Shown in pieces: positions 8,758 through 61,214 of a stretch of 64,000 nt of DNA (position 1 is the first letter of the stretch; every line of letters starts with the position of its first letter). The notes under the pieces are model-generated. The model had not been told where the DNA came from, did not search any database, and was given only the letters and a program-made list of their open reading frames with translations. The DNA comes from Herbaspirillum sp. Sphag64 (GTDB lineage Bacteria; Pseudomonadota; Gammaproteobacteria; Burkholderiales; Burkholderiaceae_D), in NCBI RefSeq assembly GCF_014192645.1, contig NZ_JACHYE010000001.1:1009170-1073169 (forward strand). Reading direction: 5' to 3'. Made by a program: the position numbers and the translations under genes.

Positions 8758-9459
8758 TCATGATTCAGGTAGACGCAACAGGTCTACTGTAATCACCACC
8801 AGTAACAAGGCTGGAATGACCAACGGTTGTCTGATCCAGCCATCTACCACCGCCCCCACTGCAGCTGCCACGCTGTAAGTTAGCCAGGCCAGACCCGGCA
8901 ACAGGACTTCGGCAAGCTCAGGACGTTTGGCACGCTCGGCTTTTTTTCCAAAATAGCGACCAACAAATGCATCCGCAAACTTCACCATATTGTTGGTCAC
9001 CACCAGCGTCTGCAACGACACAGCACCAAAGCGACTGATGGCTTCGCCTTGCATGGCCAGCGCCAATGCCAATAACGGTAATTCAACCGGCACTCGCAAG
9101 GCGGGATGGGTACGTACCAGACCGGTAAACAGCAGCAACATCGCCATCAAGGACAGCTCCAATGCCGGCCGTCGCAAATGGCGACGAATTACACTGGCGA
9201 TCATGCAGCCGACAAAGAAGGCACCAATTGCGAAAGCCAGCAAGCCGAATCGTGACCAGCTCTGCTGTGCCAACGTCCAGCCTAGCTGCACGGTATTGCC
9301 GGTCATGATGGCAGGATAGATACCGCCGACATCCTTGTAACCGATGACCTCGACAAAACCACACACGGTCGTCAGTGCCACCACCCGACGCAGATTGACA
9401 GCCATGGATGGGACAGCAGGTGCAGCAAGGGAAATCACATCTTGCGAGAGCGTCGTCAT
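8758..9459 (-). CDS. DUF1275 (YoaK) family membrane protein
   Basis: This 233-residue integral membrane protein has five to six hydrophobic helices and the family hallmark GFVEVIGYKDVGG followed by MTGNTVQLG. Its biochemical role is unknown. I start at the ATG at 9459, which has AAAGGA 6 nt upstream; the frame extends 6 codons further. The stop of the CoA-transferase gene lies 23 nt upstream, so it is probably the last gene of the oxalate group. A transport-related role for an oxalate-pathway compound is a guess from position only. No OxlT-type oxalate:formate antiporter is seen in the window. Confidence 0.85.
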   Translation of the reverse strand: MTTLSQDVISLAAPAVPSMAVNLRRVVALTTVCGFVEVIGYKDVGGIYPAIMTGNTVQLGWTLAQQSWSRFGLLAFAIGAFFVGCMIASVIRRHLRRPALELSLMAMLLLFTGLVRTHPALRVPVELPLLALALAMQGEAISRFGAVSLQTLVVTNNMVKFADAFVGRYFGKKAERAKRPELAEVLLPGLAWLTYSVAAAVGAVVDGWIRQPLVIPALLLVVITVDLLRLPES

Positions 9460-9482
9460 ATCAGGTCCTTTCCCCAAGAGAG

Positions 9483-58794: not shown

Positions 58795-60150
58795 TTAGGC
58801 CACTGGCGTGCGCATCGTGACAAACTCTTCTGCCAGCGTCGGGTGAATGCCGATAGTGGCATCGAACTGTGCCTTGGTGGCGCCACAATTGAGCGCTACC
58901 GCAAACCCCTGAACAATCTCGCCAGCATCCGGCCCCACCATATGTACGCCGAGTACACGATCACTGTTGGCATCCACCACCAGTTTCATGAAGCTGCGTT
59001 CGCCATTACCGCTGAGCGTATGCTTGAGAGCCCTGAATTCTGACTTGAAGATGCGCAGCGTTTTGCCCTGTGCTCTTGCTGACTCTTCGCTCAAACCAAC
59101 CGTGGCGACATTGGGATGACTAAATACGGCCGTAGGAATATTGTCATAAGAAATGGTGCGTTCACCCTGCCCGAACAGACGTGACGCTACAACCATCCCC
59201 TCTGCCAGCGCTACCGGTGTCAACGCCACACGATCAATGACATCGCCGATGGCGTGGATCGAAGGCACACTGGTCGTAAAATGTTCATTCACCCAGACTG
59301 CACCACTTTCTTGTAAGCGGACACCGGCCGATGCCAGCCCCAGACCTTCGGTATTGGCGTGACGCCCGGTGGCAAACAGCACACAATCAGCCATAAGCTG
59401 GTTGCCATCGGTGAATTGAATATCGCGTGCACCGGAGACATGCACGGTGATAGCGGCAATATTGTTTTCAAGCAGTACCGTGATGCCTTTCTTGCGCATC
59501 TCTGCCGTCAGAAAATCACCCAACGCACGGTCCATCCCTCGCAACAGATGTTGGCCGCGATAAACAAGTGTTACTTCGCTGCCGAGACCATTGAGAATCG
59601 ATGCCAGCTCAACGGCAATATAGCCGCCACCGAGCACAACCGTGCGCTGCGGCAACGCCGGCAAATGAAAGAAATCATCTGAGGTAATCCCCAGCTCCTG
59701 TCCGGTAATCCCGGGCAAGCTGGGTCTGCCGCCAGTCGCCAGCAAAACGTGCGCTGCGCTGTATTGCTTGCCATTGATGCTAACAGTATGCGCATCCTCA
59801 AGGCAGGCATATCCCTCCAGTCGATGCACCTTGGCGCCGTCGAGCAAGTTGCGGTAGATGTCGTTGAGACGCAAGATTTCCCGGTCCTTGGCAGCAATCA
59901 GTGCAGACCAGTCAAGTGTTGGCGACACTTCGCTCCAGCCAAAACCACGCGCATCAGCAAAGTCTTCATGGAAGTGTGCGCCGTAGGACATCAGCTTCTT
60001 GGGAATGCAGCCCAGATTGACGCAGGTACCACCCCAGTCGCGTCCCTCGGCGATGGCAACGCGCGCACCATATTGCGCCGCAAATCGTCCGGCCCGGACA
60101 CCGCCGGAACCACCGCCAATGATGAATAAATCGAAATCGTATTGCTGCAT
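58795..60150 (-). CDS. gor: Glutathione-disulfide reductase
   Basis: Gor reduces oxidised glutathione with NADPH. The 451-residue protein has the FAD motif IIGGGSGGVRAGR, the redox disulfide GGTCVNLGCIPKK (C43, C48), an NADPH-binding GGGYIAVELASILNGLG, and the C-terminal GIHPTLAEEF with the active-site histidine. Length matches plant-type and bacterial GR. The start at 60150 has a poor ribosome-binding site. It is 186 nt downstream of the small SOS-box-linked gene on the same strand; no obvious terminator lies between. Confidence 0.95.
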   Translation of the reverse strand: MQQYDFDLFIIGGGSGGVRAGRFAAQYGARVAIAEGRDWGGTCVNLGCIPKKLMSYGAHFHEDFADARGFGWSEVSPTLDWSALIAAKDREILRLNDIYRNLLDGAKVHRLEGYACLEDAHTVSINGKQYSAAHVLLATGGRPSLPGITGQELGITSDDFFHLPALPQRTVVLGGGYIAVELASILNGLGSEVTLVYRGQHLLRGMDRALGDFLTAEMRKKGITVLLENNIAAITVHVSGARDIQFTDGNQLMADCVLFATGRHANTEGLGLASAGVRLQESGAVWVNEHFTTSVPSIHAIGDVIDRVALTPVALAEGMVVASRLFGQGERTISYDNIPTAVFSHPNVATVGLSEESARAQGKTLRIFKSEFRALKHTLSGNGERSFMKLVVDANSDRVLGVHMVGPDAGEIVQGFAVALNCGATKAQFDATIGIHPTLAEEFVTMRTPVA

Positions 60151-60335: not shown

Positions 60336-60566
60336 TCAGCGACGTGCCTTGGACAACACCAGCAACCAGCGCCGGAACAGGAGTACCTCCAGATGGCCCG
60401 GCTCAATGCCTGCACTGCATTCAATGACCGGATTGACACGATAACGGCGTACATAGGTGTCTCGGCAAACAAAAATTTCGCGACGGCCGAAGCGCAGACT
60501 GAATGATGAAGGGGTAGAAGATTCCAGACCAAAGCGTGCGCCTGAAGTGAGATCCAAGTGTGTCAT
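60336..60566 (-). CDS. Small cationic protein of unknown function, downstream of an SOS box
   Basis: This 76-residue protein starts at an ATG preceded by AGGA (10 nt before). It has 12 arginines, one lysine and seven acidic residues, giving a net charge of about +6, and two cysteines (C34, C50). A mixed hydrophobic/basic C-terminus (LEVLLFRRWLLVLSKARR) could form an amphipathic helix. I recognise no family. The frame remains open to a TTG at 60659, but that would cover the promoter and SOS box. A near-consensus LexA site 47 nt upstream of the ATG suggests induction by DNA damage. Coding status rests on ribosome-binding site, codon character and promoter context only. Confidence 0.6.
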   Translation of the reverse strand: MTHLDLTSGARFGLESSTPSSFSLRFGRREIFVCRDTYVRRYRVNPVIECSAGIEPGHLEVLLFRRWLLVLSKARR

Positions 60567-60606
60567 GGCAGTGGTTCCTATCTCGAATGATGAGTCACCA
60601 CTGTAG

Positions 60607-60673
60607 CACGAGTACTGTACAAATAAACAGTAGTTTCGCGAAGCGTTGTTTTTGTACAATCCACACGAGTACT
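60607..60673. repeat. CACGAGTACT direct repeats flanking the SOS promoter
   Basis: CACGAGTACT occurs at 60607-60616 and again at 60664-60673, 57 bp apart, bracketing the LexA box and the -35 region. Significance unknown. Confidence 0.5.
60613..60632. promoter_or_regulatory. LexA (SOS) box
   Basis: TACTGT-N8-ACAGTA matches the E. coli consensus TACTGTATATATATACAGTA at all twelve conserved outer positions. On the minus strand it overlaps TACAGT, a candidate -10 with TTCGCG as weak -35 at 17 nt. Confidence 0.7.
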
Positions 60674-60770: not shown

Positions 60771-61214
60771 TCAGTATGTTTTGTAAGGCAGGAACTTGCC
60801 ACTGAGGACAACATTGACGCGGTCTCCATTGGGATCGGGCTGCCGTTGGATATCCATCTTGAAGTCAATCGCACTCATGATGCCATCACCAAACTCTTCA
60901 TGAATGAGCTCCTTGATGGTACTGCCATAGACACTGACGATTTCGTACCAGCGATAAATCAGTGGATCGGTTGGCACTACAGTGGGCAGAGAGCCTTTAT
61001 AGGGAACGATCTGCAACCACAGCGTTTCTTCATCGCTGAGGTCAAACAATTCCTGCGTCACGGCCGCCTGTTTGGCGGTCAGGGTCATCTGCCCCAGCAT
61101 CGCAGCGGTCGTCCATTCCTTGCTTTGGCCAATGTGCTTGGCAACCTGTGCCCAACTGAGTTGCTTTCTGACCTTCGCACTGATGATTTTCTGTGTAACC
61201 TGATGACGATCCAT
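60771..61214 (-). CDS. cynS: Cyanate hydratase (cyanase)
   Basis: CynS decomposes cyanate and bicarbonate to ammonia and CO2. The 147-residue protein aligns with E. coli CynS (offset of 8) and keeps all three catalytic residues: R88, E91 and S114. The N-terminal helical domain and the C-terminal FGDGIMSAIDFKMDI are intact. An AGGAG lies before the ATG. The gene is 25 nt downstream of a GntR regulator gene; neither the CynR LysR regulator nor the cynT carbonic anhydrase of the E. coli operon is nearby. Confidence 0.96.
   Translation of the reverse strand: MDRHQVTQKIISAKVRKQLSWAQVAKHIGQSKEWTTAAMLGQMTLTAKQAAVTQELFDLSDEETLWLQIVPYKGSLPTVVPTDPLIYRWYEIVSVYGSTIKELIHEEFGDGIMSAIDFKMDIQRQPDPNGDRVNVVLSGKFLPYKTY

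Follow-up and report, generated by a model that had tools for sequence, protein, structure and literature searches.

A LexA-type box conserved with a small orphan gene in Herbaspirillum and its family points to an SOS gene

A 76-residue open reading frame (ORF) in a 64-kb stretch of the genome of Herbaspirillum sp. Sphag64, a bacterium of soil type (the whole stretch analysed, hereafter the window), lies behind a LexA-type box that has been kept with it across genera. Comparison of its sequence with those of relatives indicates that it is a real gene under purifying selection, and LexA almost certainly controls it. Very likely the gene belongs to the SOS genes under LexA control and encodes a soluble effector of one sort or another, and this small protein very probably takes part, as an undescribed component, in the DNA-damage response of these bacteria. 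The motif and its regulon are already known; the protein family, as far as our searches reach, is undescribed. The features of the window that concern us are the following.

58795-60150, minus strand: glutathione reductase gene gor, 185 bp after the ORF, identified by a family model
60336..60566, minus strand: 76-aa ORF, a conserved small SOS-type gene, with ATG at 60566 and TGA ending at 60336, supported by homologues and pN/pS
60576..60579, minus strand: ribosome-binding site AGGA, 9 nt 5' of the start codon, read from the sequence
60600..60608, minus strand: extended -10 element TGCTACAGT, 4 nt past the box, read from the sequence
60613..60632, minus strand: LexA-type box TACTGT-N8-ACAGTA, an exact match and a palindrome, read on the minus strand as TACTGTTTATTTGTACAGTA
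60771-61214: cyanase gene, upstream of the small gene, identified by a family model

Conservation of the box with the small gene

The box at 60613-60632 (TACTGTACAAATAAACAGTA) has no mismatch and is the sole exact match in the 64-kb window. The original prediction, which placed TACTGT-N8-ACAGTA here with every consensus position kept, was exact, and the plausible promoter that it proposed at the box is borne out by an extended -10 element beginning 4 nt after it. The ribosome-binding site that it put at 60566 has to be moved: an AGGA is present at 60579-60576, and the start codon begins at 60566. Counts within the window are only suggestive, since the bare core CTGT-N8-ACAG is not significant in 64 kb (one occurrence against 0.88 expected). 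Allowing up to two mismatches gives three boxes where 0.67 would be expected, a count reached by 2 of 100 shuffled versions. The statistics of the window alone are modest, and it is conservation that decides. We also note a one-mismatch box (TACTGTAATCACCACCAGTA) at 8785-8804, within a 239-aa ORF (8758-9477, minus strand), which is probably a chance match.

A wider genome scan gave 172 confirmed places for the gene, and the best 80 of these were analysed. They come from Herbaspirillum, Noviherbaspirillum, Undibacterium, Janthinobacterium, Duganella and Rugamonas, and from bins or strains assigned at family level or higher. Within 200 bp upstream, 78 of these best 80 of 172 loci carry a box with at most two mismatches; the best box has no mismatch in 41, one in 30, two in 7, three in one (L119) and five in one (L105, on a metagenome-assembled contig of which 191 bp precede the gene). 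As background, the 611,307 other positions of the same 80 loci hold 15 boxes with at most two mismatches, and three of the five background boxes with at most one mismatch lie upstream of the same gene, just outside the search range. A second, partly overlapping convenience set consists of 87 loci, 40 of them hand-picked from the single-sequence search described below to cover genera and the spurious L030 left out; 85 of them (65/67 and 20/20) have a box with at most two mismatches within 260 bp, and the two without are L018, on the same contig as L105, and L090, a divergent extra copy. The original prediction had named joint conservation of box and ORF in relatives as a check, and in both sets the two are found together. 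The box is retained with the ORF across genera although the genes neighbouring it vary between genera.

At 69 of the best 80 of 172 loci an extended -10 (TGNTANNNT) lies 3-5 nt past the box (chance 0.0029), and at 61 of them the gap is exactly 4 nt; the 11 loci that lack it are Undibacterium loci, family-level bins and L105. In an alignment of 19 Herbaspirillum-type promoters the ribosome site and the -10 are conspicuous, as are the half-sites of the box. Second boxes are found 19 bp away at many Janthinobacterium and Duganella loci (L141-L177, including Rugamonas) and 41 bp away at many Undibacterium-type loci (L120-L163), and this fixed spacing hints at a lineage-specific tightening of control.

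A homologue search, also proposed with the original prediction, was positive in all 25 Herbaspirillum genomes searched (the strain's own and 24 others) and, as a profile search, in 126 of 195 genomes and 24 of 44 genera of the family Oxalobacteraceae. The 126 include a marginal match in G112 (E 1.7e-4, 34 positions) and a copy with an in-frame stop in G139; a single-sequence search gave 127 of 195 family genomes at E <= 0.01, two of them marginal. Since 69 of the 195 genomes have no match in the profile search, the gene is not indispensable. Across 300 genomes of the order, a profile search returned nine matches, all within the window's family, and protein identity is at least 57% across many genera (best 80 of 172 places). 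The gene was not found on the plasmid and phage records searched, and none of 40 pattern matches in viral_contigs was confirmed. The ORFs behind exact boxes at 16 other loci, two of them in the same family, gave no profile match (best E 0.34). The sole out-of-genus match of a genus-level search (G035, E 0.0027) proved spurious, with two internal stops and repeat-like sequence.

Selection was assessed on 18 gap-free ORFs of the same genus, seven of the 25 being omitted for differences in length or start. In 153 of 153 pairs pN is smaller than pS, with a summed ratio of 0.17, and variable columns number 24, 10 and 64 at codon positions 1, 2 and 3. The alternative that the box arose by chance and the ORF is no gene would sit well with the roughly 0.9 CTGT-N8-ACAG cores expected in the window, but it is contradicted by this uniform excess of pS and by the co-conservation of box and ORF, and we give it practically no weight.

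Company of the box in the genome and the position of gor

The strain's own genome holds eight exact boxes against one for the reversed pattern. Exact boxes precede ruvA, recG, imuA (NF033429, 208 bits, cut-off 150) and a 77-aa ORF without a family match that lies beside a DUF1353 gene; the window gene, its second copy and two further sites account for the rest. One of these two sites lies before a PA0069-family radical-SAM gene (L195:6815-8017, G000:C2); at the other (L038:341-1929, G000:C19) the box is followed by an 89-aa ORF without a family match and a 405-aa IrrE-domain protein, by appearance a toxin-antitoxin-like pair. The lexA gene, which scores over the model cut-off, has AACTGTATAAAAATACAGAC 40 bp before the matched frame, with an exact core and three outer mismatches, and the upstream region of recA carries AACTGTTTTTTTATACAGTG. 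The company of lexA, recA, imuA, ruvA and recG argues that the motif is the LexA site in this genome. The small gene (C1:1069508) and lexA (C1:748016) are not adjacent.

Both the palindrome and its placement at the promoter are like those of the LexA regulon of Proteobacteria, with lexA, recA, imuA and a radical-SAM/splB-like gene as shared genomic company (PMC3323433). The available text of that source gives lexA, recA and imuA-imuB-dnaE2 as the regulon core and places splB under LexA control in Beta-proteobacteria, to which our radical-SAM gene is a possible parallel. That text does not list the small gene among the members of the regulon. It also predicts two LexA-controlled hypothetical genes, hypA and hypB, in other Beta-proteobacteria, and their stated distribution differs from that of the small gene (PMC3323433).

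The second copy of the small gene (L194:6262-6480, G000:C13) has its own exact box. A 243-aa ORF without a Pfam family (L194:6487-7218) starts 9 bp after this copy, and 128 of 195 family genomes hold a relative of this ORF. It was dropped as a partner gene of the system because a box with at most two mismatches is present at just 3 of 19 scanned loci of its relatives, and one of the three, at L201, is the box of that locus's own small-gene copy.

Control of the small gene by LexA is strongly supported by the co-conservation of box and ORF, the fixed -10 spacing, the regulon company and the box of the second copy. The original reading, in which expression of a small protein of no recognised family is driven from a LexA site, gains from co-conservation and also from the family searches given below.

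A further suggestion was that gor has no evident terminator before it and that glutathione recycling could be SOS-linked; the glutathione link is not supported. The gor gene lies on the same strand, 185 bp past the ORF, and a consensus scan found no terminator between the two, but a looser script reports, a short way ahead of gor, a weak hairpin with CTTCGTTTT after it, so that the lack of an evident terminator is about right but less than certain. A tblastn search of 4-kb flanks located gor at 13 of the best 80 of 172 loci; one of these has it about 0.6 kb past the small gene, and in the other 12 it lies about 3 kb downstream. At five of six inspected loci the longest ORF that begins a short distance downstream of the gene runs on the opposite strand, and the sixth (L118) has overlapping ORFs of similar length on both strands, its orientation being ambiguous. 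Downstream of the gene, hairpins that run into long stretches of T are present at five Undibacterium-type loci (L120, L122, L123, L125 and L127); at the remaining loci the terminator script was negative or weak. Given the separation in 12 of 13 relatives, the opposite-strand ORFs and the weak hairpin, we consider it very unlikely that gor and the small ORF are served equally by the box and that glutathione recycling is thereby tied to the SOS response. The arrangement suggests that the small gene is probably not in an operon; read-through into gor is possible in the window, but the box is not conserved for the sake of gor.

The predicted protein

The 76-aa protein (P0001) has a net charge of +6, a pI of 10.7 and two cysteines, in line with the strong positive charge and two cysteines first noted for it, and its homologues are mostly basic (median pI 10.2, minimum 5.8). 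Hydropathy over 19 residues peaks at 0.92 in P0001 and at no more than 1.39 in 67 homologues, where the usual membrane threshold is about 1.6; by this measure none of them has a membrane segment. The view that the protein belongs to no recognised family also holds: P0001 gave no match in Pfam or NCBIfam at E up to 10, or in PHROGs, where it was the only query, and a PDB profile search with the small-protein family found no relative. Single homologues from a 45-row alignment gave isolated weak matches (at best 0.14 in Pfam, 0.013 in NCBIfam and 0.046 in PADLOC), which we take as chance because none is common to two members. No description of the family was found among open-access papers, the only literature covered, which is weak evidence. 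Across the 45 diverse members G27, R29, G53, G57 and W67 are invariant, and M1, R25, E30, D36, R40, Y42, P46, C50, L68 and A74 are nearly so.

The structure predicted for the window protein is poor (pLDDT 58.7) and has a C-terminal helix. A better model, that of the homologue from Herbaspirillum sp. ST 5-3 (L118; pLDDT 66.8, pTM 0.54), consists of strands throughout, two of them at the C-terminus, with a low-confidence loop at 40-50, and the small protein is probably beta-rich. The residue pair preceding W67 varies among homologues (RR, GK, NR, SR and SK), and because such a variable pair resembles a beta turn, we infer a C-terminal hairpin at this position and not an amphipathic helix. The models disagree at this end of the protein and do not establish the amphipathic C-terminus of the original prediction.

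Candidate roles in the SOS response

In the mechanism that we favour, the small gene would be a stand-alone SOS gene. LexA would occupy the 20-bp palindrome, which covers the -35 region of the extended -10 promoter, and block RNA polymerase until RecA-triggered cleavage of LexA, as established SOS biology would have it, frees transcription. The product, about 75 residues long, would be soluble and basic and is probably rich in beta strands. For the effector step our guess is a damage checkpoint, with a cytosolic division inhibitor in the role of SulA.

We put forward such a lineage-specific checkpoint protein tentatively. A little less probable is the reading that the proteins form a new family, to date seen only in one bacterial family, of soluble, basic, beta-rich checkpoint effectors that stop division or remodel the nucleoid during DNA repair and that take the place of SulA, unrelated to it in sequence and lacking a membrane anchor. 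The likeness to SulA (PF03846) lies in this possible role, that of a small LexA-controlled cytosolic protein. SulA is about 170 aa long, against 76 aa for P0001, and the two have no sequence relation: P0001 matches no Pfam family up to E 10, and SulA is not among the Pfam matches of 45 homologues up to E 1. The evidence for a checkpoint is circumstantial. PF03846 is absent from 19 of 19 genus genomes searched (with a positive E. coli control), and, in the available text of PMC6851548, unrelated small SOS division inhibitors are described in other lineages, namely SidA, YneA, ChiZ and SosA. These are likewise small, LexA-controlled and lineage-specific, but have a membrane segment, unlike the small-protein family (PMC6851548). 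Against the checkpoint role stand this lack of a membrane segment and the distance from lexA, in both of which several known inhibitors differ. An argument from complementarity with SulA, suggested by PF03846 matches in 22 of 195 family genomes, 19 of them without a match to the small gene, was dropped. An ORF that we take to be imuB-like adjoins the PF03846 match in five of six inspected loci (the exception is L236), so that these matches look like ImuA, not SulA.

Nearly as likely as the checkpoint, and so itself doubtful, is an accessory protein, induced in the SOS response, that binds DNA or RecA and acts on RecA filaments, lesion bypass or the nucleoid state and not on division, perhaps in the manner of DinI or a small nucleoid-binding protein. 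Small SOS accessory proteins, DinI among them, are of comparable size, SOS-controlled and without a membrane segment. The mostly basic character of the family, its want of a membrane segment, the near-invariant arginines R25, R29 and R40 and the probably beta-rich fold would all suit such a protein. However, P0001 has no Pfam match at E up to 10 and hence falls in no known RecA- or DNA-binding family; DinI is represented by models in Pfam and NCBIfam, and P0001 matches neither database up to E 10. With a family pI reaching down to 5.8, strong charge is not universal either. A membrane-active toxin of the TisB type, the comparison drawn in the original prediction, is far less probable. TisB is a small, cationic, SOS-controlled membrane peptide, and the present protein shares the first three properties and has a hydrophobic C-terminal third, but TisB sits in the membrane whereas neither P0001 nor its 67 homologues reach the membrane threshold in hydropathy. 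The absence from searched plasmid and phage records and the identity of at least 57% across many genera (best 80 of 172) speak against it as well, and toxin-like roles are disfavoured in general.

SOS effectors vary by lineage, and for lineages without SulA it is an open question which gene halts division once DNA is damaged. A LexA-controlled orphan gene present in 24 genera of one family would be a direct candidate for this division stop, and with it a well-studied regulon would gain an undescribed protein family.
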